DNA of 64,000 bases from Methanosarcina vacuolata Z-761 (GTDB lineage: Archaea; Halobacteriota; Methanosarcinia; Methanosarcinales; Methanosarcinaceae), in the NCBI RefSeq assembly GCF_000969905.1, contig NZ_CP009520.1, positions 3,968,001 through 4,032,000 of the forward strand, written 5' to 3'. Below the pieces are notes generated by a model, which was not told where the DNA came from, did no database searches, and saw nothing but the letters and a program-made list of their open reading frames with translations. Every line of letters starts with the position of its first letter. Positions within the stretch are counted from its first letter, which is position 1. The translations under genes and the position numbers were made by a program. This document shows positions 1,603 through 46,354 of this stretch, piece by piece.

Positions 1603-1842
1603 CCTGATCACTCTGTCGACTTCCTGGATACATATAATTGAAATAAAATACAGTGCAAAGAAGGTATTAATTTATAATGCAGATTTTGTAGCTATAAACC
1701 TGCAAAGTATAAATTTGTAACCTTAATTCCCAAATTTTAAGCGCATACTTTTTGTATCCCTATTTTGCTCATTTAATTCGTGTGCAGATGCATACTAACT
1801 TACTCATTTCCAAACAACAATTCAAAAACTATCTATACTATT

Positions 1843-1865
1843 ATGCGCTTATTATATAAGCGCAT
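1843..1865. promoter_or_regulatory. Palindrome over the transposase start, copy of the IS end sequence
   Basis: ATGCGCTTA and TAAGCGCAT are perfect 9-bp arms spaced by five bases. They repeat the sequence found at both IS ends (TATGCGCTTAAAA). The right arm contains the proposed ATG at 1864. A transposase that binds its ends could bind here and repress its own expression; this is inference. Confidence 0.45.
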
Positions 1866-3715
1866 GAAGTCTATCCTCCGCATCAAGAAAATAAATGGAA
1901 TTGAGTACTGGTACGAAGATATTCCTTATTACGATAAGGAAAAGAAACAAATTCGCCATAAATCCAAATATGTTGGCAGAAACATAAACGGTAAACCTGT
2001 TAGAGTTCGTGACGCATTAAACTCTTCCGATGAAATCGTGCAAGATGAGACTTCTTTCGTTTCCAGCAAACCTGTAAATGCTTATAACTATGGTGAGTTC
2101 CTTCCATTACAGAAAATAGTAGAAGAACTCAAAATTGAAGAGTATCTTGGTGATCTGTTCAATGAAAAAGACAGGAACATGATACTTTCAATGGCACTTA
2201 ATCGTGTAATTCGTCCTACAGCTATGTATAACCTTAAAACCTGGTATGAGAATTCTGTTCTTTCTCTCCAGTGGCCTGAGTTACCCTTGAAAAGTCAAAA
2301 CATCAGTAATCTACTTGCAAAAGTAGGTAATAGCGACATTCCATCCATGTTTATGGGTAAAATGTTTAGAAATCTTGGGACAAAACGCACATTAATGTAC
2401 GATCTTACCAGTTTATCGAGCTACTCACAACTAATTAATCTTCTTGAATACGGATACAATAGAGACAATTGCGATCTTCCTCAAATAAATCTCTCCATGA
2501 TTGTGGATAAGGAAAAAGGAATTCCGGTGATGTATGACATCTATCCTGGAAGTATTGTAGACGTTACAACTCTTAAAAATACTCTAAAAAAGATAGAAGC
2601 TCATGGAATGGAAAACTATACACTGGTAATGGATAGAGGCTTTTTCAGCAAGGGAAACATTGAGGAATTAGTAAAGGAAAAGATTCCTTTTATTATGCCA
2701 GCTACAATGGCACTTAAAAGTGTCAAAGAGCTTATGAGTTCAGTACAAAAAGACATCGAAAGTCCGGATATCTTCATAAGTTTCACAAAAAACCAATATT
2801 TGTAAAGCCAGTGACTCTTGAGGAAAAGGAATTCAAGATCAATGGATACTGTTTCTATGATCCAAAGAGAGAAATGGAAGAAAAAAGCACATTTTACTCC
2901 CGTCTTTATGATATGAAGGAAAAACTGGAAGAAACAGCAATACCAGGATGGAGAAATGCGGCAGAGGTGTTCAAAGAGAGAGCAAGGGAAATGGCAAGTT
3001 TCTATTCGTGGAAAAAGATAGATGACCATTTCAAAATCAATATCAAGAAAAATGCAGTATCGCAGAGAATAAACAGAATGGGGAAGTTTTTCCTTTTTTA
3101 TTATGGAGAACGTGATTGGGTAGAATGTCTCACTTACTACAGAGAAAGAGATATTGTTGAGAAAGGATTCAAAGTAATGAAAAATGATATTCAGTCGCTT
3201 CCACTAAACACAAACAAAGATTCAACAACAAAGGGATTCATTTTTGTCTGCTTTATCGGACTAATTATTAGAATGAAGCTACTGAGTATGATGAAGGAAA
3301 CAAAAATTATTGAGGATTATACAGTAGAGAGTTTACTTTTAGCCTACATTCGGCAGCAAGCACATCCCAACATTGAAATATCTTTAATTGTTATTTTTTG
3401 TAGGTTCAGTTAATAACCAGTATCATACGGACTATGTATATAGCAGGGTTTGTCTTTTATCTCAATTACTATAAATATATATTAATTATATCATGGTTAA
3501 CATTTAGTAATTTTTGATTTAAATGGAAATTCAAAAGTTCTGAAAAAAACGATATCAATAGAAAAATTGAATGGATTTTTATGTCGACCTGCCGAAAGCA
3601 GGTTTTAGAGCTTGAGAAGATCAGAAAAGTAGAACTGCAAAATGGAGAGGTAATAGTTACAGAACTCACAAGAAAGCAAAAAGAAATTATGGAAAAATTG
3701 AATTTATGCGCTTAA
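1864..3715 (+). pseudogene. IS1634-like DDE transposase, frameshifted and interrupted
   Basis: Three pieces join into one transposase of about 585 residues. Piece 1 (1864 to about 2780) holds the N-terminal region and two catalytic motifs: D in LMYDLTS and D in LVMDRGFF. Piece 2 runs in another frame to 3342 and contains the catalytic E region (RDIVEKGFKVMK). Piece 3 (3608-3715) gives the C-terminal tail ELEKIRKVELQNGE...NLCA and the stop. The first break fits a one-base deletion between about 2776 and 2792, just before an A6 run. The second is the MITE at 3343-3602; deleting it with one TTTTAG copy restores SLLLELEKIRK. With two independent lesions the enzyme should be inactive. The start at 1864 matches the family's usual beginning; an in-frame ATG exists upstream. 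Confidence 0.75.
3343..3602. mobile_element. 260-bp MITE inserted in the transposase, 6-bp target duplication
   Basis: The element starts CCTACATTCGGCAG and ends with a sequence whose complement is CCTGCTTTCGGCAG, so 12 of 14 terminal bases match. It is flanked on both sides by TTTTAG (3337-3342 and 3603-3608). Excising the element and one TTTTAG restores the transposase frame, which proves insertion into a once intact gene. No reading frame of note lies inside, so it would need a transposase supplied in trans. Confidence 0.8.
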
Positions 3716-3883: not shown

Positions 3884-6685
3884 TTAATCATCGAGTTGAA
3901 CTGCTCTATATGTTTGTTCAGCACCTCCATATTTTACTATCAAATGTTTGAATAAAGGTCTAGCCTTTTCATTTTTTTCGATATATTTTTTAATATTTAG
4001 GATATTTACTTTTTGTTCAGAAGATAGGTCATCGCGCAGTTTGCCAATATTATTGTAAGCAAAACGTAATAAATGATTACCAAGAATTGGATTGTTTTCA
4101 AATATTGCTTCAAATTCAGGCTGAGTTATCTGAAGGAAATTATCTATTAGTTCTATTTCAATTTCTCTCTTATCTCTATATTTACTTAACAGTTCAACTA
4201 ATTGTAATTTTTCCACCAATGAATATATTTTAAATTCACTATTAGTTCTCAAGTTATGAATTATACTAATATTATTTGAATACAATTCCAAAAATTTCAT
4301 TTGAATTTCTTCTTCTTCATCAACTAGAAGCAACATTGATTTGTCTATGATTTTTGGAGGCAACAAACTAAAGCATTTATCAAGTGAATTTACAAATATT
4401 GCTCTGTGTTTTGGATCTTCTGATGAAATTACAGCCTCCACACAAGAATAAAATAACGGAGATTCTCCAAACACTTCGACTCTTCTTATCATGTGTTCAA
4501 GGGCTATGGCCTTTTCGTCAATGTCTTCACTTTCTGCTGAGATAAGTAGTAACTTATCCAAATCTCTATTTACTGTTCCATAATTCTCAATTATACGTAA
4601 CTGAACAAGATCCAGTTTATTATCTAAGTCATCCAATACATTTGTTAAATTTTCTTTTAATGTTGCCCACCAATGAAGCAATCTTGACTCCTTTTTTATG
4701 GCGTACCAAAAAGCTTCATGGTAAGAAGGGTGAACAAAGTCAAATTTATCTATTTCTGAATTTTTTTCTCTACTTTCCAAAAGTATCATATCAAACTTAT
4801 CTTTGTCAACTGAAAATGAACTAGGAGGAATACTAAATATGTACTTTTTTTTATATAGAAACGCTAAAGTCTCTCTATAGGCGTCTTCAATATTTACTTT
4901 AGATACAGAATCATTTATAAAGAGTATGTTTGAGGTTGATTGGACCTCTACCCACAATAGGAAAATTTGTTCATGGTCAGATAAGCTAGCCATCCATTCT
5001 CCCAATGCCCTTATCATTTCTTTGGATTTCTCTACATGCTGAAGCACTTCTTCTAAAGAAGTAAGTCTTTCTGAAGTTCTTACAAAGAATTCTATGTTGT
5101 GGGGAGCTGGAAGCATTTCAGGTAACTTTTCATCTAGTACCCAAACTACTTTTTCGTCAGTTGACCAAAGAGGTTTGTAAAACTGAGTATACCTATGTAG
5201 TATATCTACAAGAACTTCTGATTTATACGAAGTATGGACTCTCAGATCTTTTTCAAGTTCTTCAATGTCTTGGCAATCTTGTTCAGCCAGAGCTTCTCTA
5301 AAAATATTCAATCTAGTGGTTACAATAATTCTCAAATGCTCATACTGCTTAGATAAAATCAAAAACTCACTTAGTCCTTTGGCAAAATCATTTGTTCTAC
5401 GCTCCATCGTTTCGCCAAAGGGATCATCAAAATGAATGATCACAGGATTTCCCTGTTTAGAAGATATTAAGAATAAAAGAAGCTTTTTAAGGCTTCCTTC
5501 GTTTTCATGAAGCAGTGTTATTAGATTATCGTGTCTTATATGCAGTGTTTCATAATCTTTTTGATAATATTCCCAAAGCAGATGGATTGCAGTAAATGTC
5601 TTACCTAAATGAGGCTCTCCAATTATGAATATTACATGATCTTTTTCTAACTTTGAACATATATCATTATACTCTGTAGGTTTTACATAGAGAGATGTTA
5701 AATTTTTATAACGACTTTGAGGGTTTTCTAATTCCTTTGCAAAACCAATCTTTCTTAAAAATCCTTCTATCGATGGTTCCGAATCTGAAGCGTTGCTTCT
5801 TTTTTCTTCAAGTTCTACATATTTCAATAATTTATCAAAAAAAGTATCAAATTTTCCATCGTTTCCATCTATTGTTTTGCCTTTACCGCGAACTATTAGT
5901 ATCTGGCAAATTCTGCTTTCGGCTTCTGGTTTTGAAGGTTTTACAAAATATATTTCTTTTCCTTCATCTTCAAAAAGCAAATCGATGTCTCGGTCTTGTC
6001 CACTATACCCTACAATAATTAGGTTTTGGTTAATTAATTGAGATAGATTTGGCTTTATTTCCTTTTCAAAATCAAAGATTTCCTCTTGTCTAAAAGCATA
6101 ACTTTTTGGTGATTCTAGAGTACCATGTAACTTAACTATCTTCAGAGGATTACGGGATGAACTAAGTTGATCCACTATTTCTTCATGTCTGTCTCTCCCG
6201 TTTACAACTATGATAAAATCACCTGGTTGATATCCTGAATTGTTTAGGGCTTTTTCCATTAAATTATCCAAATTTGTTGAAAGGACTGTCTTAATAAAGC
6301 CTTTTTTTATCAGTTTAACTAGGCTATCATATCCTTCTGAAGGAATTTTGTCTTCCCATAGATGTTTTCTAAGTATTGAATATTGGTTATCGTGATCTAA
6401 TAAGCTCCATATTTCAAAAAAACGGGTACGTTTCTCTTTGTTTATCTCATTTCTTAAGAGCTCTCCGAATCTTTCCTCTTTTTGGGTGGCGTCTTTAATC
6501 TCTTTTTCCCATATATCAAACTCTGACTTAGCATGTTGTTCCAAAACGTCATCAACAATTTGCACCATTCTTGAGCATCCAGAACTTATTGATGCTCCAG
6601 CACCGAGAAATAATATATACGGATCAGTACCGGAAATTTTTCTTGAAACCATGCTGCTAGCTAAAGCTCTTATAGAGTCTGACAT
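3884..6685 (-). CDS. SIR2-domain STAND NTPase, Avs5-like defence candidate
   Basis: About 930 residues with three parts (numbering from the ATG at 6697). Residues 25-290 are a SIR2 fold: LGAGAS at 31-36, TNLD at 141-144, the catalytic-type KLHG with His191, and GYSGQD at 230-235. Residues 335-600 are a STAND-type P-loop NTPase resembling nSTAND3: LYVKP...LEKDHVIF, Walker A GEPHLGKT at 360-367, Walker B IHFDDP, and IIVTTR. The rest is a long helical, HEAT-like C-terminus, the usual sensor position. In bacteria SIR2-STAND proteins (Avs5/DSR type) degrade NAD+ on sensing phage proteins; a similar role here is inference. The second ATG (6685) is favoured because GGTG precedes it by about seven bases. 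The gene is AT-rich and stands alone between IS debris and toxin-antitoxin remnants, which fits horizontal transfer. Confidence 0.8.
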   Translation of the reverse strand: MSDSIRALASSMVSRKISGTDPYILFLGAGASISSGCSRMVQIVDDVLEQHAKSEFDIWEKEIKDATQKEERFGELLRNEINKEKRTRFFEIWSLLDHDNQYSILRKHLWEDKIPSEGYDSLVKLIKKGFIKTVLSTNLDNLMEKALNNSGYQPGDFIIVVNGRDRHEEIVDQLSSSRNPLKIVKLHGTLESPKSYAFRQEEIFDFEKEIKPNLSQLINQNLIIVGYSGQDRDIDLLFEDEGKEIYFVKPSKPEAESRICQILIVRGKGKTIDGNDGKFDTFFDKLLKYVELEEKRSNASDSEPSIEGFLRKIGFAKELENPQSRYKNLTSLYVKPTEYNDICSKLEKDHVIFIIGEPHLGKTFTAIHLLWEYYQKDYETLHIRHDNLITLLHENEGSLKKLLLFLISSKQGNPVIIHFDDPFGETMERRTNDFAKGLSEFLILSKQYEHLRIIVTTRLNIFREALAEQDCQDIEELEKDLRVHTSYKSEVLVDILHRYTQFYKPLWSTDEKVVWVLDEKLPEMLPAPHNIEFFVRTSERLTSLEEVLQHVEKSKEMIRALGEWMASLSDHEQIFLLWVEVQSTSNILFINDSVSKVNIEDAYRETLAFLYKKKYIFSIPPSSFSVDKDKFDMILLESREKNSEIDKFDFVHPSYHEAFWYAIKKESRLLHWWATLKENLTNVLDDLDNKLDLVQLRIIENYGTVNRDLDKLLLISAESEDIDEKAIALEHMIRRVEVFGESPLFYSCVEAVISSEDPKHRAIFVNSLDKCFSLLPPKIIDKSMLLLVDEEEEIQMKFLELYSNNISIIHNLRTNSEFKIYSLVEKLQLVELLSKYRDKREIEIELIDNFLQITQPEFEAIFENNPILGNHLLRFAYNNIGKLRDDLSSEQKVNILNIKKYIEKNEKARPLFKHLIVKYGGAEQTYRAVQLDD

Positions 6686-6864
6686 ATAGAGCACCATTAT
6701 TTTGTTTACAAATTAATATCAAATGAGAAATACTACTTCTAAAACGTTACGATTTTTCACTGTTTCTTAATATAAACTTCAAAATAGCCACCTAATCGAA
6801 GAATTTGGTAAGTTATATTCGAAATATAATAAAAAAGTGATTTAAAAACAGGTTGCTTTTAAAT

Positions 6865-7127
6865 TTAGAAGTCTCGATACACTCTCTTTCTCGAATCGAC
6901 GCTGACTATAATTATGATAATCTCTTATAGTCAATCCGATAGAGAATCCTGAAATCCCCAACTCTTATTCTAAAAAGCTTTTCGCTGATGCCGTAGATTC
7001 TTTTAGCATCATGAGGAATAGGGTCTTCAGCAAGTTTTTCAATGGCTTTGATGATTCTCTGGCTGTTTTTGGAATCGAGTTTTTTGATGAAATTCTTTGC
7101 AGGCGTGTCCAGAAAAATTTCAAACAT
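6865..7127 (-). pseudogene. RelE/ParE-type toxin, C-terminus frameshifted
   Basis: The first 67 residues are a clear RelE-type toxin (FLDTPAKNFIKKLD..., LFRIRVGDFRILYRIDY). The frame then hits a stop after IDYKRLS at 6912. In the neighbouring frame the missing end is still readable: IIIIVSVDSRKRVYRDF, with a stop at 6865-6867. Restoring one A in the TATAAGAG stretch would rejoin the frames as DYKEIIIIVSVD. The loss removes the last beta strand and basic tail, which usually carry catalytic residues, so the toxin is probably dead or weak. It follows its antitoxin with a one-base gap. Confidence 0.75.
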
Positions 7128-7128
7128 A

Positions 7129-7332
7129 TTAGATTCCCAGTTCTTTCTTGAACTCCGAAAGGGAAATCAGTTTTTCTTTTTTCTGGTGCTCATAGCTTTT
7201 ATCTACGAGCTTTCTTTCCTTATCAGTGAGTATACAGTCTACGTCCACCATATGTTCTCTTATGTCTGTCAGTTGTTTTTTGATAGAATCGAGTTCCTTT
7301 ATTACTTTCTCCTCAAAATCAGCCTCAGCCAT
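7129..7332 (-). CDS. Antitoxin partner of the broken RelE toxin
   Basis: This 67-residue acidic and helical protein (DFEEKVIKELDSIKKQL... ending EFKKELGI) lies one base upstream of the relE pseudogene in the same direction, the standard antitoxin-toxin order. The family looks like the short RelB-like antitoxins common in Methanosarcina, but I recognise no DNA-binding motif with certainty. With its toxin truncated it may persist as a relic or protect against related toxins elsewhere. Confidence 0.65.
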   Translation of the reverse strand: MAEADFEEKVIKELDSIKKQLTDIREHMVDVDCILTDKERKLVDKSYEHQKKEKLISLSEFKKELGI

Positions 7333-7787: not shown

Positions 7788-8213
7788 ATAAAAAACAAAA
7801 CATTTGTTATCTTTTTGGCTATTTGTTTAATTTTGGGTACCGTTCCTTTTGCTTTGGGTGCCACTGAAAAGGTAAGTGGTTCTACAACCTCGGTTTATAT
7901 AAGTGCTTTATATGTTGGAGCTCGTGGTGAACAGCCGAATCAAGAGTATGTTAAAATTACAAATAAAGGAACAACATCAGTAAATCTGAAAGGTTGGAAA
8001 ATTAAGGACAAGGGTGCAAAGCATACCTACACTTTTTCTTCATACAAATTAAAATCTAAAGCTTCGGTAACTCTCAGAAGCGGAAAGGGTAGAAACTCTG
8101 GAAGCACGTTGTATTGGAATAAGTACTCCTATATTTGGAATAATGACGGAGATACGGCGTATTTGTATAATGCTCAAGGAAAATTGGTTTCTTCGAAAAC
8201 TGTAAAGAAATGA
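7788..8213 (+). CDS. Secreted lamin-tail-domain (LTD) protein, possible ATA start
   Basis: The mature part (about 115 residues) is a single lamin-tail domain: VYISALYVGARGE...EYVKITNKG, NLKGWKIKDKG, HTYTF, and the closing WNNDGDTAYLYNAQGKLVSS. LTD proteins are immunoglobulin-like and often exported or attached to the cell surface. A signal peptide precedes it. In frame, the peptide begins ATA-AAA-AAC-AAA-ACA at 7788, ten bases after a perfect GGAGG, where a Met-Lys-Asn-Lys start would be expected; there is no ATG. The alternatives are a TTG at 7815, which would leave no basic N-terminus and a poorly placed SD, or a start codon lost by mutation. The gene ends in a clear terminator hairpin. Confidence 0.65.
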   Translation: MKNKTFVIFLAICLILGTVPFALGATEKVSGSTTSVYISALYVGARGEQPNQEYVKITNKGTTSVNLKGWKIKDKGAKHTYTFSSYKLKSKASVTLRSGKGRNSGSTLYWNKYSYIWNNDGDTAYLYNAQGKLVSSKTVKK

Positions 8214-8236: not shown

Positions 8237-8310
8237 TATTATATGAGCTAATCCCAGAACTTAAAAATACTTCACTGAAATTCCGGTAAAGATTGGAAGG
8301 CAAGAGCCTG

Positions 8311-8480
8311 AATTATACGTTTCTGATCGAGCAGGACGAAGACGGGATATATTGCAAAAAGTTCCTGACATACCGGGTTGCTATACTCAGGGAAAAACAG
8401 TTGAAAGGGCTATGGAGCATATAAGAGAAACGATACAGGTCTGTCCTTCGCTGAAAAACAGTTCAGACATAATATTGTAA
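8311..8480 (+). pseudogene. HicB-like antitoxin remnant, frameshifted
   Basis: Two frames together spell a HicB protein. The first reads NYTFLIEQDEDGIY (about 8311-8352). The second, from about 8361, reads VPDIPGCYTQGKTVERAM and continues EHIRETIQVCP, with a stop at 8478-8480. The junction (ATATATTGCAAAAAG) looks like small indels in an original IYVAKVPD. I see no start codon and no convincing hicA next to it. Confidence 0.65.
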
Positions 8481-8528: not shown

Positions 8529-8792
8529 TTAAAATTTTCTGTAAACTGTGCTGAGATATCCAGCTCCGATTACAAAAATAATAAGCTGTGACCGTGTAAT
8601 ATTCAACAGTACTCGATATTCTCCTACTCTCAAAGAATAGATAGGTGAATCAGGAGATGTTTTTAATTTCTTGACATGTGAGTAAGGTTTTTCCTTAATC
8701 TCAGTAATCGCATCAAAAATTCTTTTTCTAGCTTCAGGTGGCAGTTTATTGATATCCTTAATAGCGCGTGAAGTATACTGAACAGTGTACAT
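8529..8792 (-). CDS. RelE/ParE family toxin
   Basis: An 87-residue RelE-superfamily toxin: VQYTSRAIKDINKLP at the start, then YSLRVGEYRVLLNI, and an intact last strand with basic tail (IIFVIGAGYLSTVYRKF). RelE-type proteins cleave mRNA on the ribosome or act as gyrase inhibitors (ParE); the subtype cannot be decided here. The ATG overlaps the antitoxin stop by one base (TAATG), which implies translational coupling. Unlike the copy at 6.9 kb this toxin is full length and probably active. Confidence 0.8.
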   Translation of the reverse strand: MYTVQYTSRAIKDINKLPPEARKRIFDAITEIKEKPYSHVKKLKTSPDSPIYSLRVGEYRVLLNITRSQLIIFVIGAGYLSTVYRKF

Positions 8793-11779: not shown

Positions 11780-12823
11780 TTACACCAGAAAATCACTGAA
11801 GTCGATCTCTTTACCCATTCTCAACTGATTTCGGAGAAGAGTAAGTTTGCGATCTATTTTTTCGAGGCTCTTCAGGTACTTTTTCTCATTCAGCGTGGTT
11901 TTTATAAGTTTTGAAATCCCGCCATTTTGAATGACCAGCCGCTGATCTGCCGATAGAGCCAGAAGAGGGTCATGAGTACTGATTAAAACAATCTTATTAT
12001 TACTTACCAGAAGCTTCAGAGATCTGACCTTGTCAACGCCTGCATTCTCAATCTCATCGATCAAAACAACAGATGCCGGACTGAGAAGTGCGGTATCTGC
12101 AATCATCAGAGCGCGTGATTGACCTCCTGAAAGCTCTGTAACAGGAGTTTCCCTGCTGAAAGGTTCTCCTGCCAGGATGTTTGCAGTATCATATATTTTC
12201 TGAACAATACGAGAAACCTCATCAACCATACGGCTCTCCGCATGCATGGTCAGAAACTCCTCGACACTTAGGTCCATAACAAAGTTCATGTTCTGTGAAA
12301 GCTGCGCAATAAAACGCCCCTCGGTTGAAAAACGCTCCTCGTCACCTGGAGCCCGGCCATTAACCAGTATTTTCCGGCCGGTTGGAGTGTCCTCCTGAGC
12401 CAGAGATTCAATATCAGCCAGAAGACGTGACTTGCCTGATCCTGTCGGGCCGACTATTGCTGTAACCTCACCCTTTTTCAGATTTACCGAAAAGGCTTCA
12501 TTTTCACCATTTTTATTACGTCCAGGGAGCACTGTCAGGGATTCAACTGTGGACCCGCTTCCCTGTTGAAGAGCCCTTGCCTGCTCAATAAATAGAAAGA
12601 AACCATCAGTAAAAGCAAGAGAGCTGCTTCCCATCTCGATAAAATAATCTTCGCCAAGTATCGAACCCAGCTCTTCCAGTTTCCTGCTCCCGAACTGTGC
12701 AGGATCAATTGCAAATGCAGAGAAATAGTCCTCTATCCAGGGCATCATCTTCCTGAGTTCATTTATCGTCATTTGGAGCAAATCTGTCCGCAAGCTCTTC
12801 CTTCTCCTCTGAAATTTATTCAT
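11780..12823 (-). CDS. Soluble ABC-type ATPase without a permease
   Basis: A 347-residue single-domain ABC ATPase: Walker A GPTGSGKS at 125-132, Q-loop near 173-178, signature LSGGQ at 231-235, Walker B SVVLIDE at 251-257, and STHD as the switch His. An extra N-terminal region of about 100 residues precedes the ABC core, and a basic helical tail follows. No membrane segment is present. It is the last gene of a three-gene operon with a GTPase and a solute-binding-like protein; no permease is encoded nearby. This points to a chaperone or metallocentre-insertion role rather than transport (inference). The start codon lies inside a five-copy 20-bp tandem repeat, so expression may depend on repeat number. 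Confidence 0.75.
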   Translation of the reverse strand: MNKFQRRRKSLRTDLLQMTINELRKMMPWIEDYFSAFAIDPAQFGSRKLEELGSILGEDYFIEMGSSSLAFTDGFFLFIEQARALQQGSGSTVESLTVLPGRNKNGENEAFSVNLKKGEVTAIVGPTGSGKSRLLADIESLAQEDTPTGRKILVNGRAPGDEERFSTEGRFIAQLSQNMNFVMDLSVEEFLTMHAESRMVDEVSRIVQKIYDTANILAGEPFSRETPVTELSGGQSRALMIADTALLSPASVVLIDEIENAGVDKVRSLKLLVSNNKIVLISTHDPLLALSADQRLVIQNGGISKLIKTTLNEKKYLKSLEKIDRKLTLLRNQLRMGKEIDFSDFLV

Positions 12824-12910
12824 TCCATCTGAAATTTATATTTCTTATCTGAAATTTATTCTTCCCATCTGAAAGTTATTCATCCCATCTGAAAGTTATT
12901 CATCTCCTCT
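12811..12910. repeat. Five 20-bp tandem repeats between the GTPase and ABC ATPase genes
   Basis: Exact 20-bp periods at 12811, 12831, 12851, 12871 and 12891 (consensus GAAAKTTATTCWTYCCATCT). On the coding strand each begins like the ATPase start (ATGAATAA...TTTCAGA). The GTPase stop lies in the last copy and the ATPase start in the first, so the repeats have pushed apart two genes that probably once overlapped. Confidence 0.85.
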
Positions 12911-13591
12911 AAAATTTACCAGCTTTGAAACGCCAATCTGCCTGTCATCCCCGATTTTTCTCTCTCCAAGACAGTATGAACATAGAGCTGCAGGCATAGT
13001 AAATCGAAGTGTAGCTCCCTGAAGGGTTTCAATTGTAGAGGTTTTTTCCACAAGTTTTGCAAGATAGAAACTACCCTGTCCTGTAACGCCATTAATCTGG
13101 ACTATCATTCCCCTGGGATTAACCTGTCTAACCCTGTATGCAAAGACCTCACGCTCTGCCTGGGAGACGATATCCCCTTTAGTAATAACAACGATGTCTG
13201 CAAGTTTTAACATGGGACCGATTTTTTTAGGTGTGTTGACACCGCTCAGGTTATCAATAACACAGATTGCCAGAACATCCTTAATATGGGGAGAACAACG
13301 GTTGCAAAGACCGGCACTCTCAGTAATCAGAAAATCAAACTTCTTCTCTTTGGCCCACCTGAGGGCTTCTTCAATATTGCTCACAAAAAAGTGGTCAGGA
13401 CAGAGCCCTCTGGAGAGGCCGGTCTTGACCGGAATATTGTGAGCGGAATAAAGTTCCTCATCCTGAGCCGAGAGACAGTCGAATTTTACCACACCGATTG
13501 TAAAACCCTTTTGTCTAAGCTCTTCGATGGTCTTGATAATGATACTGGTTTTTCCTGATGAGGGAGGACCTGCCACCGTAACAAGCCTCAC
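12896..13591 (-). CDS. HypB/P47K-like GTPase with two CxxC motifs
   Basis: A 231-residue P-loop GTPase: Walker A GPPSSGKT at 8-15, VVKFDC at 34-39, a G3-like ITESAG at 89-94, and TKGD at 137-140. Two cysteine pairs stand out: CNRC at 96-99 and CSYC at 204-207, suggesting metal or Fe-S binding. The overall pattern resembles HypB and COG0523 metallochaperone GTPases. The start is a GTG overlapping the upstream stop by four bases (GTGA) with GGAGG ten bases upstream. The set of GTPase, ABC ATPase and soluble binding protein suggests maturation of a metalloenzyme, but the client is not shown by the sequence. Confidence 0.75.
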   Translation of the reverse strand: MRLVTVAGPPSSGKTSIIIKTIEELRQKGFTIGVVKFDCLSAQDEELYSAHNIPVKTGLSRGLCPDHFFVSNIEEALRWAKEKKFDFLITESAGLCNRCSPHIKDVLAICVIDNLSGVNTPKKIGPMLKLADIVVITKGDIVSQAEREVFAYRVRQVNPRGMIVQINGVTGQGSFYLAKLVEKTSTIETLQGATLRFTMPAALCSYCLGERKIGDDRQIGVSKLVNFRGDE

Positions 13592-14820
13592 ACCATGCCT
13601 CCGGTCTCATAAAAATGTTCATTGAAAACCACTTCAACCTCTTTTTTAAGTGTTCCTATGTCAGTATTCATCAGGAAGTCCCAACCCAGCCAATAGAGTT
13701 TGATTCCTTTAAGATTATTCTCAACTTCGGGGTTTGTTGTCGGGAAAAAGGCTCGGGCAGAGATTTTACCAAACTCTTTTCCACAGAGGAAATCCGTGAT
13801 CTCCTTAACCCGTTCTACTGCACTTTTTTTAACCAGCATCTGCACAGGGCTTACAATAGCTCCTTCTGAAGGTATATTGATCGTTATCCGGGATTTGTCC
13901 TGAATTTTCCTGGCAAAGAAGAGAGGCATGATATACATTGGGGGTACATCATCTTTTTTGCTGTCTATCATTTTGACCATCTCGGATGGATGGATTCCCG
14001 TATATACTGATGAAGCAAGTTTTTTAATTCCCTCCATGCCGTACAGCCGATAGAACGGGAGCAGTACTCCATTACAGAAAAAGCCGTCCTGTCCCCGCAT
14101 AACAACCCTGTTCCGGTACTCATCTTTCAAGATATCTTCCCAGGATTCCGGTTTGGGGTTATCCTTCATGAGTTCATCTATTGTAACCAGAACAAGAAGG
14201 TTTGCAGAGATCATGGTAAACTGGCCGCGAGGATCCGCAAAACCGATGGATTCAAAATCACGGTTCATCGGGGATGAATTGAGAGTTACAAAATATTCCT
14301 TATTGAGAAAATTCTCCTGGAAGGGTTTATGGTAAAAGCTGTTAATATCAGAACTGACTATTATGTCCGGCAGTTCGTCAATCGATGTAACCAGATCGAT
14401 ATAGGCATAATATGAGAGCTCATGATTGACATTACCTTCTACAAGAGAATGGAGCACATTATTTATTTGCCTGCTGTATTCGGATGAAAAGTCATCAAAT
14501 GCACGGTTAAAGGGCATCTTCATGCCGCATGGCAAAAGGGCAAGAAGGGTCAGCTCTTTTTGTCGTTCCGGAGAATCTGCAAGGGTAAAATCTCCTTTTG
14601 CTTCATTGGACACAACAGCCTGATTCAGGAGCTCAATAAAAGAGTCTTTGTTCACCGATACCATTGATAAAGCTGTTTTCAATTTTAGTAAAGGGCCAAG
14701 TTTTTCGAGAACTTCCTTATTTTCAAATTTCTCCATTCCATGCTGTTTAAATATTTTTAGCAAAAAAGGATATTCACTTAAGATCTGGTATATACTCATT
14801 GTTTCATCAATTGCTTTCAT
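13588..14820 (-). CDS. Cytoplasmic solute-binding-like protein with N-terminal DUF1858-like domain
   Basis: A 410-residue protein with no signal peptide. Residues 1-65 (IDETMSIYQILSEYPFLLKI...HGMEKF) resemble DUF1858/ScdA-type N-terminal domains. From about residue 90 the sequence looks like a periplasmic iron-type solute-binding fold (LPCGMKMPFNRAFDDF..., WEDILKDEYRNRVVMRG, FFPTTNPEV). Solute-binding proteins are normally exported, so a cytoplasmic version beside a permease-free ATPase is unusual. SD AGGTGG precedes the ATG by six bases. It is the first gene of the operon with the GTPase and ABC ATPase. Function unknown; small-molecule or metal-ligand binding in an assembly pathway is inference. 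Confidence 0.7.
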   Translation of the reverse strand: MKAIDETMSIYQILSEYPFLLKIFKQHGMEKFENKEVLEKLGPLLKLKTALSMVSVNKDSFIELLNQAVVSNEAKGDFTLADSPERQKELTLLALLPCGMKMPFNRAFDDFSSEYSRQINNVLHSLVEGNVNHELSYYAYIDLVTSIDELPDIIVSSDINSFYHKPFQENFLNKEYFVTLNSSPMNRDFESIGFADPRGQFTMISANLLVLVTIDELMKDNPKPESWEDILKDEYRNRVVMRGQDGFFCNGVLLPFYRLYGMEGIKKLASSVYTGIHPSEMVKMIDSKKDDVPPMYIMPLFFARKIQDKSRITINIPSEGAIVSPVQMLVKKSAVERVKEITDFLCGKEFGKISARAFFPTTNPEVENNLKGIKLYWLGWDFLMNTDIGTLKKEVEVVFNEHFYETGGMV

Positions 14821-43306: not shown

Positions 43307-43711
43307 TCATGCAGAGATCACTTTTGCTTCTTTTTTAATTCCTTCAATAAGGTATGGGCTTATCGACCCTTCGGTTAGTAAATCGACTTTTACTCCAAGA
43401 AACTCCGATAGCTCTCTCTCAATTCTTACCATAGTGAGCAGACCTTTAGTTTCGGAAAACTCTACAAGAACGTCGATATCACTTTCTGGTCTTTCTTCTC
43501 CTCTTGCATAAGAGCCAAAAATAGCTACCTTTGTTGCTCCTTCTTTCTTGAGGAACGAAGATATTTTTTCGAATAACTCTTTATTTTGGGAAGCACTCTC
43601 CATATCAGCATAATTTCGTTTGTTACAATTTAAACATTCCTGATGAAAGAGAGCCACTTGTTTTGTCTTAGAATATTTTGGCTCTTCGTTGTTTTGTGTG
43701 GATATTCTCAT
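43307..43711 (-). CDS. Orphan MNT nucleotidyltransferase with MITE-derived 5' extension
   Basis: The core, from Met at 43603, is a 98-residue MNT protein: KVAIFGSYARGEERPESDID (GS-x-DxD) and GVKVDLLTEG, ending YLIEGIKKEAKVI. No HEPN toxin gene is next to it. The open frame extends 36 residues upstream to 43711, but the first 10 or so codons (MRISTQNNEE) are inside the MITE at 43680-43781, so the long form is probably a by-product of the insertion, and 43603 is the likelier start. The MITE may have separated the gene from its promoter or former neighbour. Confidence 0.7.
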   Translation of the reverse strand: MRISTQNNEEPKYSKTKQVALFHQECLNCNKRNYADMESASQNKELFEKISSFLKKEGATKVAIFGSYARGEERPESDIDVLVEFSETKGLLTMVRIERELSEFLGVKVDLLTEGSISPYLIEGIKKEAKVISA

Positions 43712-43882: not shown

Positions 43883-46354
43883 TTATAATTCTCGCACAAG
43901 ACGAAAACCAATATCTTCATGCGCAAAATTTTTTGAGCAAGCGGTTCGAGTTGACGACGAGCAACTTTCAGCTGCGACATAGTATCCACCGCCCCGGAGA
44001 ACATGTAAAGAGCTTTTATCATCTAACCAGGCACTGCCGTCAGAAGGAGCGCCTTTATAGTTACCGTGCCAAATATCCTGAACGAATTCTTCTACATTAC
44101 CATACATATCATACAAGCCCCATGGATTCGGTTTTTTCTGACCGACTAGATGATTGTCGTCATGCGAATTTTCGCTATACCATGCATAGTCTCCAAGTTT
44201 GGATTCATCATCACCAAAGAAAAATTTTGTAGTTGTTCCTGCACGACAAGCATATTCCCATTCAGCCTCAGAAGGCAAACGATACTTGTGAGTTTTATCC
44301 ATTTCATTGAGTTCTTTGATAAATATCTGAACAATATTCCATGAAACATGATTAACTGGAAGATTTTCGAATTTGAATAAATAAGAATGAAAAAGACTCC
44401 TGCCCATAACATCAGACCATTGCTTATTAGTAACAGGATATTTACCTAAGAAAAAAGGATTTTTGATCGTTACTTTATGAAGAGGAGTTCCTGTTTTATC
44501 TGTGCCCCTTATATCCTCAGAGGATCCCATCATGAATTCACCTTCAGGAATTAAAATGAATTCCATTTCACTTATTATGTTAGAAGGTGAAGGATTAGAT
44601 ATACTATTATCAATGTTCGTAAAGACAGGTGAAATCTGCAAAAGTTCACTAAAATCAAGGTCTTCAAGAGTGTATTCAACTATATTTTTTGAAATATTCT
44701 CTCCTTCTAAGCAACCATACCTCAATAAGTTAATTAGTCTATCATCCATTTCCCACTTTTCAAGATCTTTATCTATACTTGTCTGCATTAAAGCAAATTC
44801 CTGCAGCTGAGTCAAAATTTTTCTGTTTGAATTTAAAGCGTAAATAATTGAGTTCCATTTTATGCTTATTGCAATGAATTTTGCAAGTTTTTTGCAATTC
44901 CAGATATTTTTAGGAACGTTTTCTTCCATCTGGGAAAAAAGACCAGTTCTTTTTCCTATAGTTAGCTGGAAACGAAATTGATTAATAAACTGCTTTATCC
45001 TGCGAGGGTTATAATCCAAAGCCGGAGCAACCATTTCTAAAATAAGTTTTGAGGTCTTAAAATTTTCCACACAATCTCTACTGTACTGAATTTCCTGCTC
45101 ATCTGGATCATCCTCTATTTTATTTGATTTAGTAACTTCAGTTTCTTGCTCTTCGGATTGATTTTGCACAGATAAACTATTTTCTTTGAGAGATTCATCA
45201 GGATGAAAGTCTTTTGATGCACTTGATTTGTTCATAGGTTTAAATGGACTTAAAGAAGTTTCAGTTTCATCTGTTGACATTAAAAATTTTAAAAAATCAT
45301 CGCTTTTTGGTTTGGGCACTTTAAAAGGAAGTTGAATGAATTTTTCAATAAAATCATAGCCATACTCAAGCCCTTCGATCTTCAGGTAGTCAATTACTTT
45401 CTCATTTTTAGCAGCAATTCCTGCTGAGATAACTTTCCGATCGATACCTAACACAAAATAAATTTTGGAATCGTCTGAAATCATAAGGTTAATGGATTGC
45501 ATGAGTTCTGCTGCTTTTGGAACTTCACAACGATCAAGGTCATCAATAAAAACATAGACTTTTGAATCTCCGACATAGGACTTAACTATTTCATTGAAAT
45601 CGGAATAAAATTTCTCTCTAAAAGAAATGCGATCCTTATAATTCGTGTTTGATTCTATTTTTTTAAAACCAAAAGGATCTCTAAGCACACCTATGAACCA
45701 TTGCTCAGTAGAAAAATATTTTATAAGACCGATGAGTGGAGCTGAAATCAGAATAAAACTTGAAAATTTCTTGAAAATTGTATCATCTATAAGAAACGGT
45801 AACGTTATTCCCATGTAATTTAAAATATAGGTCACAACTAAAAATAAGAATAAAAATATAAGTATAAACGAAAAAATAGTCCACAAAACATGAACCAGAA
45901 CGAGGAAATTGTTTTTGAATTTAAGTTTATATCTAAGAAATAATAATTTAACTCTTGATTTTTGTCGGCGCATCCAAGAAAGTTGTGTCGACAATTCATC
46001 CATAAAATTAAGTGCAAAAGATGCCCATAGTTCCTCTTCTTTGTCGTACTTCCAGGCATTGAACCATACTGTAAAATATTCCATTTCTTCTTTTGCGTCA
46101 TTTTTTTTGTTAGCTTCATTTTTTTTATTTACTAGTTCTTTTAATTGTTTCATGAAAGAAGATTTACCGCATCCCCACTGTCCTTCTATGGAAAGAGTAA
46201 TAGGAGGTAATGTGTCTTTGTCGGTAAGAAATTCTACAATAGCCTCAACGTAAGGTTTGAATCCAAGTGAATCTTTTGCTGTTGCATTATCATTTTTCAG
46301 ATTTGGCAAAGAATTTTTCCCTTCACTTATTTGATATAGGAATTTAACATTCAA
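43883..46354 (-). CDS. KAP P-loop NTPase fused to an FGE-sulfatase-fold domain
   Basis: An 823-residue fusion. Residues 30-580 are a KAP NTPase: Walker A GQWGCGKS at 58-65, FTVWFNAWKYDKEEELW, two membrane segments inserted at about 150-180 and 197-214 as is usual for KAP, Walker B VFIDDLDRCE at 268-277, and GIDRKVISAGI. Residues 597-823 are a formylglycine-generating-enzyme/SUMF1 fold: FILIPEGEFMMGS, PVTNKQW, YRLPSEAEWEYACRAG, PWGLYDMYGNVEEFV, LRGGGY and DIGFRLV. The real FGE active-site Cys arrangement is not evident, so it may serve as a binding module. KAP NTPases appear in phage defence and membrane signalling. It stands alone in a mobile-element-rich region, AT-rich. Confidence 0.8.
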   Translation of the reverse strand: MNVKFLYQISEGKNSLPNLKNDNATAKDSLGFKPYVEAIVEFLTDKDTLPPITLSIEGQWGCGKSSFMKQLKELVNKKNEANKKNDAKEEMEYFTVWFNAWKYDKEEELWASFALNFMDELSTQLSWMRRQKSRVKLLFLRYKLKFKNNFLVLVHVLWTIFSFILIFLFLFLVVTYILNYMGITLPFLIDDTIFKKFSSFILISAPLIGLIKYFSTEQWFIGVLRDPFGFKKIESNTNYKDRISFREKFYSDFNEIVKSYVGDSKVYVFIDDLDRCEVPKAAELMQSINLMISDDSKIYFVLGIDRKVISAGIAAKNEKVIDYLKIEGLEYGYDFIEKFIQLPFKVPKPKSDDFLKFLMSTDETETSLSPFKPMNKSSASKDFHPDESLKENSLSVQNQSEEQETEVTKSNKIEDDPDEQEIQYSRDCVENFKTSKLILEMVAPALDYNPRRIKQFINQFRFQLTIGKRTGLFSQMEENVPKNIWNCKKLAKFIAISIKWNSIIYALNSNRKILTQLQEFALMQTSIDKDLEKWEMDDRLINLLRYGCLEGENISKNIVEYTLEDLDFSELLQISPVFTNIDNSISNPSPSNIISEMEFILIPEGEFMMGSSEDIRGTDKTGTPLHKVTIKNPFFLGKYPVTNKQWSDVMGRSLFHSYLFKFENLPVNHVSWNIVQIFIKELNEMDKTHKYRLPSEAEWEYACRAGTTTKFFFGDDESKLGDYAWYSENSHDDNHLVGQKKPNPWGLYDMYGNVEEFVQDIWHGNYKGAPSDGSAWLDDKSSLHVLRGGGYYVAAESCSSSTRTACSKNFAHEDIGFRLVREL

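Follow-up and report, generated by a model that had tools for sequence, protein, structure and literature searches.

The SIR2-nSTAND3 gene and its surroundings

We analyzed a 64,000-nucleotide stretch (hereafter the window) of the 4.56-Mb genome of the archaeon Methanosarcina vacuolata Z-761 and identified on its reverse strand a gene in which a SIR2 domain is fused to an nSTAND3 NTPase (Table 1). The reading frame ran unbroken from the ATG at position 6685 to the stop and encoded 933 residues. An alternative ATG at position 6697 would give a product of 937 residues; the start at 6685 fell inside a block that was kept across five related genes. A Pfam scan placed SIR2_2 (PF13289) at residues 133-240 with an E-value of 1.8e-12 (48 bits, cut-off 24.5) and nSTAND3 (PF20720) at residues 333-500 with an E-value of 8.9e-18 (64.9 bits, cut-off 27.2), and no non-defence family scored above its own cut-off. 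The SIR2 motifs GAGAS (residues 28-32), STNLD (136-140), KLHG (185-188, with the HG at 187-188) and GYSGQD (from 226) were all located, and the residues N138, D140 and H187 were intact. No cysteine was found between HG and GYSGQD, so that the classical sirtuin zinc module was not seen in that interval. The NTPase carried Walker A (GEPHLGKT, 356-363), Walker B (VIIHFDD, 415-421) and a TTR motif with the conserved arginine (456-458).

We compared the gene with its only full-length orthologue in the genus, found in genome G009, and obtained dN/dS values of 0.14 for residues 1-300, 0.08 for residues 301-520 and 0.12 for residues 521-740. These values indicated a maintained gene under purifying selection and not a chance reading frame. 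An earlier sequence-only reading had described an intact archaeal SIR2-STAND protein with complete SIR2 and Walker A/B motifs, and the open frame, the full set of NAD-site and Walker residues and the selection on the core bore this description out.

The same reading had placed the gene in an island with IS elements and toxin-antitoxin genes, which agreed with the split transposase, the two ParE-like toxin genes and the HicB-like remnant that we found nearby. The remnant is a repeated 166-bp element that resembled an RNA gene, a candidate rejected since the element reads as a HicB remnant. An RNA or tRNA gene was looked for as the anchor of the island, and none was found. The gene had also been called solitary. 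No partner gene was seen among its neighbours, so the term stands for the gene itself; it does not stand across the genus, where the gene is part of a modular STAND set with several members in one hotspot. Other genes in the window included one flanked by the two toxin-antitoxin pairs (7815-8213, plus strand), whose small product looks secreted and has a lamin tail domain. Further along, a KAP NTPase with a fused FGE-sulfatase domain (43883-46354, minus strand) adjoined an MNT-type nucleotidyltransferase (43307-43711, minus strand), and the two resembled a conflict-system pair.

Table 1. Features at and around the SIR2-nSTAND3 gene (positions in the window)
Feature	Position	Strand	Residues	Basis or remark
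SIR2-nSTAND3 gene	3884..6685	-	933 aa	Complete; open reading frame and Pfam
SIR2_2 (NADase-type) effector domain	5771..6685	-	1-305	Pfam and motifs
nSTAND3 NTPase domain	5186..5689	-	333-500	Pfam and Walker motifs
Remaining STAND module	4466..5185	-	501-740	Conserved FVHPSYHEAF at 650-659
All-helical C-terminal stretch, putative sensor, hypervariable	3887..4465	-	741-933	Model and identity profile
Upstream leader	6686..6806	-		Conserved along with the SIR2 block; the five genes concerned differ in their downstream halves
Transposase split over two frames (1780-2805, 2811-3413)	1780..3413	+		First half DDE_Tnp_1
ParE-like toxin (6912-7127) and partner gene	6912..7332	-		Neighbourhood scan
HicB-like remnant	8280-8445			Read by eye from sequence and matches
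Second ParE-like toxin gene	8529-8792			Neighbourhood scan

Relationship to Avs5 and other SIR2 proteins

We modeled the protein with AlphaFold2. The whole-protein model, built from 18 sequences, had a mean pLDDT of 69 and a pTM of 0.43; the NTPase core was mostly at about 75-94, and the SIR2 part was modeled poorly. The C-terminus was helical from about residue 653 to 930, in keeping with the long helical, sensor-like end noted earlier, although its role as a sensor is putative. Pfam named no repeat family (TPR, Sel1 or PPR type) in this part. When the whole model was searched against the PDB with Foldseek, the AVAST5 filament (9nc9) ranked first with an E-value of 5.1e-8, followed by DSR2 structures with nearly equal scores and, at lower ranks, by Avs4, plant RPP1 and the Dark apoptosome. 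We also modeled residues 300-933 without SIR2 (pLDDT 73, pTM 0.51); this second model matched EfAvs5 (9jap) best with an E-value of 1e-6 and then human SAMD9, and DSR2 was missing from the listed matches. PaAvs5 too resembles SAMD9, the likeness that its authors reported outside prokaryotes (PMC12931631). The TM-score of the whole protein against Avs5 was low (0.19) because the domains were poorly placed in the model, and with such low scores the fold matches point to a common fold class and domain order, not to a precise superposition.

Avs5 proteins consist of SIR2 (PF13289), nSTAND3 (PF20720) and C-terminal repeats, and PaAvs5 requires the Asn, Asp and Glu of SIR2, the Gly and Lys of Walker A and a conserved Arg (PMC12931631). 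The Methanosarcina protein had the same two domains in the same order ahead of a helical C-terminus, with the same NAD-site and Walker motifs, and its Walker A lay at residue 356 as compared to 357 in PaAvs5-1. On the other hand, the spacing from GAGxS to TNxD was about 24 residues longer than in PaAvs5-1, the canonical HG was present where PaAvs5-1 has NG, and the protein differed from known Avs5 in being archaeal and in having putative C-terminal repeats of an unnamed type. The solved Avs5 chains in the PDB gave no sequence match even at E=10. Since the three tested Avs5 homologues are only 18-21% identical to each other (PMC12931631), the absence of a sequence match does not exclude membership of Avs5. 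No Avs5-named profile matched in PADLOC, in a search run without a positive control, and a limited literature search found no published description of an archaeal Avs5. The earlier designation of the protein as Avs5-like is supported by both Pfam domains, by the catalytic motifs and by Avs5 being the top PDB fold match whether or not SIR2 was included; the protein may or may not fall within Avs5 proper, for which four clades have been published.

By sequence, the nearest solved relatives of the SIR2 domain were 8in8 (deposited as 'Sir2 superfamily protein'), which we take to be the SIR2 protein of SPARSA, the KomC NADase and the ThsA NAD+ hydrolase; all of these SIR2 domains belong to defence NADases. 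The Methanosarcina protein differs from them in having no pAgo/APAZ, Kongming or SLOG part, and its activation would come from the fused STAND module instead. SIR2-pAgo (SPARSA) was rejected as an assignment, as the pAgo-SIR2 models among the PADLOC matches reached only SIR2 residues up to 241 and no Argonaute was present among the scanned neighbours. Thoeris ThsA was likewise rejected, with no SLOG in the Pfam scan and with toxin-antitoxin genes and a transposase, not a TIR partner, as neighbours. DSR2 shares the SIR2 NADase and the long helical C-terminus and stood high in the whole-model fold search, but it has no STAND NTPase. DSR1/DSR2 membership was rejected on architecture because nSTAND3 is present, and no Dsr profile matched in PADLOC. 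Proteins of the SIR2_2 type occur in bacteria, archaea and eukaryotes (PMC12700824).

Distribution, variation and exchange of modules

We searched 31 Methanosarcina genomes, the window's own included, and the orthologue in G009 (79% identical) was the only one of full length. No further full-length match was obtained among 393 genomes sampled from the phylum when a full-length alignment was used as the query. A first contig scan with the window protein alone gave no matches. Scanning genome-wide with the STAND half identified one full-length SIR2-nSTAND3 homologue (L061), in the Acidobacteriota MAG contig JAFAVK010000087.1, although this assignment may reflect an error of binning. The homologue is bacterial, has 1064 residues and was about 50% identical to the Methanosarcina protein over residues 1-795; its C-terminus is longer and unrelated beyond about residue 750. 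No full-length SIR2-nSTAND3 match was found in the viral contigs scanned, and tblastn against plasmids and phages with the window protein and L061 as queries detected SIR2 or nSTAND3 pieces only. That the family is rare and yet occurs in both prokaryotic domains suggests horizontal transfer. A fragment at a contig end (L024, G091:C62:7397-8182) was 48% identical to residues 560-821; it had no nSTAND3 or SIR2 upstream and may be what is left of a family member in another genus.

The last ~180 residues were the hypervariable part of the protein. Identity to the G009 orthologue was 80-96% across residues 301-750 and mostly 24-64% past residue 750, and identity to L061 fell from 42-70% to about 16-21% past the same point. 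Relative to the orthologue, dN of the C-terminus was ~5 times the core value with dS near 1.5, a pattern that fits fast change as well as exchange with a diverged copy. The search for ligand binding should centre on this hypervariable end.

The first ~305 residues were ~60% identical to the N-termini of SIR2 proteins in three other Methanosarcina genomes (G001, G004 and G026). Outside this part, these three proteins, with lengths of 1534, 1536 and 1446 residues, had no BLAST similarity to the window protein. In DNA alignments the common block starts ahead of the ATG, at about 6767-6806, and ends near 5774-5802; a leader of about 80 bases is conserved along with the SIR2 block. The STAND half was mostly 22-34% identical to that of proteins which have the same type of NTPase and differ in their N-terminal effector, namely a 'DILGFE ... 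DDW' domain, an Mrr nuclease, a nucleosidase (PNP_UDP_1) or a CN-hydrolase.

The G009 orthologue and an lhr-type helicase lie in convergent orientation. At the site of this helicase G026 carries its SIR2-STAND protein, and G001, G003 and G008 carry a STAND-plus-sensor part 70-82% identical to that of G026 in which a ~140-residue N-terminus replaces SIR2. As judged from these alignments, the lhr locus is the site of an effector swap at one place. In the window genome the lhr-type helicase is about 75 kb from the SIR2-nSTAND3 gene. The ABC-GTPase-binding-protein genes at 11780-14820 of the window also accompany the helicase in G003, G004, G005 and G029, which suggests that the gene probably occupies the same hotspot, since rearranged. 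In the SIR2 tree a grouping of the window protein with those of G009 and L061 was not rejected (p-AU 0.10), and the direction of the swap was not settled by the tree.

The lhr-hotspot STAND proteins in which the ~140-residue domain was seen (L093:8792-12679, L100:320-4177 and L107:350-4249) have 1285-1299 residues. The unnamed domain recurs at ~30% identity in L019 and may be a new effector or adaptor domain. The 'DILGFE ... DDW' family of nSTAND3 proteins was found at L020:8056-10797 and L021:6950-9436 (both minus strand) and at L018, L025, L027, L034, L062, L063, L066, L067, L072 and L073. Its N-terminal domain has two invariant Asp and resembles class III nucleotidyl cyclases by motif, a likeness for which PDB profiles gave no support. 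In two Methanosarcina genomes genes of this family adjoin type III CRISPR-like RAMP genes, in one case also Cas1.

Proposed function and competing explanations

The SIR2-nSTAND3 gene is very probably a functional defence gene, and it is likely that the protein acts on its own as an archaeal STAND immune receptor of Avs5-like type, which senses viruses and depletes NAD+. Ligand sensing, oligomerisation, NAD+ hydrolysis and an antiviral role are inferred from the literature on Avs5, in which the phage protein JADA triggers NAD+ hydrolysis (PMC12931631) and the activated protein forms filaments (PMC12700824). By this analogy, the helical C-terminal sensor would hold the nSTAND3 NTPase closed in the resting state until the sensor is bound by a protein of viral or otherwise foreign origin. 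The NTPase would then exchange or bind ATP and the protein would oligomerise, perhaps into a filament like that of Avs5, bringing the SIR2 domains together to hydrolyse NAD+, and the loss of NAD+ would stop growth or virus replication. Should this function hold, an Avs5-like form of NAD+-depleting pattern-recognition immunity would exist in methanogenic archaea as well, and the trigger would be the first archaeal-virus signal for such receptors.

The gene stands out because effectors and sensors are exchanged in nature and because its putative sensor end is hypervariable. We tentatively propose that Methanosarcina keeps recombining a set of STAND receptors by exchange of leader-SIR2 cassettes and of STAND-sensor backbones, in part at the lhr hotspot, and that the fast-changing sensors would recognise proteins of archaeal viruses; if so, these proteins would be a trigger class not yet described for such receptors. 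Ready-made chimeras for testing the modular independence of sensor and effector exist in two forms: three unrelated STAND backbones that bear the same SIR2 and, at a single locus, one backbone combined with either of two effectors.

A less probable explanation is that the same NADase switch is directed against plasmids or other mobile elements instead of viruses, as in some SIR2-pAgo systems. The closeness of the SIR2 domain to 8in8 and KomC, the pAgo-SIR2 models among the PADLOC matches and a neighbourhood of toxin-antitoxin genes and IS elements, not of a prophage, are consistent with it. We consider it unlikely, since neither an Argonaute nor another guide-binding partner was found among the neighbouring genes and since the STAND half best matches Avs5, whose known triggers are phage proteins. 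It is quite improbable that the SIR2 domain, controlled by the STAND module, modifies proteins as a sirtuin or acts as an ADP-ribosyltransferase instead of hydrolysing NAD+: some sirtuin branches (SirTM) are reported to be ADP-ribosyltransferases, but the domain matched SIR2_2, the branch that includes ThsA, DSR1 and DSR2 (PMC12700824), and both the cysteine-free interval and the intact NAD-site residues argue against it. Finally, the broken transposase, the HicB remnant and the rarity of the gene in the genus would fit a decaying or neutral gene riding on the island, an explanation that is most improbable and largely refuted by the selection on the core, the intact frame with all its motifs and the conserved leader. 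In addition to this presumed virus-sensing receptor, the same genome encodes a second, short SIR2 protein of 279 residues (L002, G000:C2:3881857-3882480), with a 312-residue partner reading frame and a transposase nearby.
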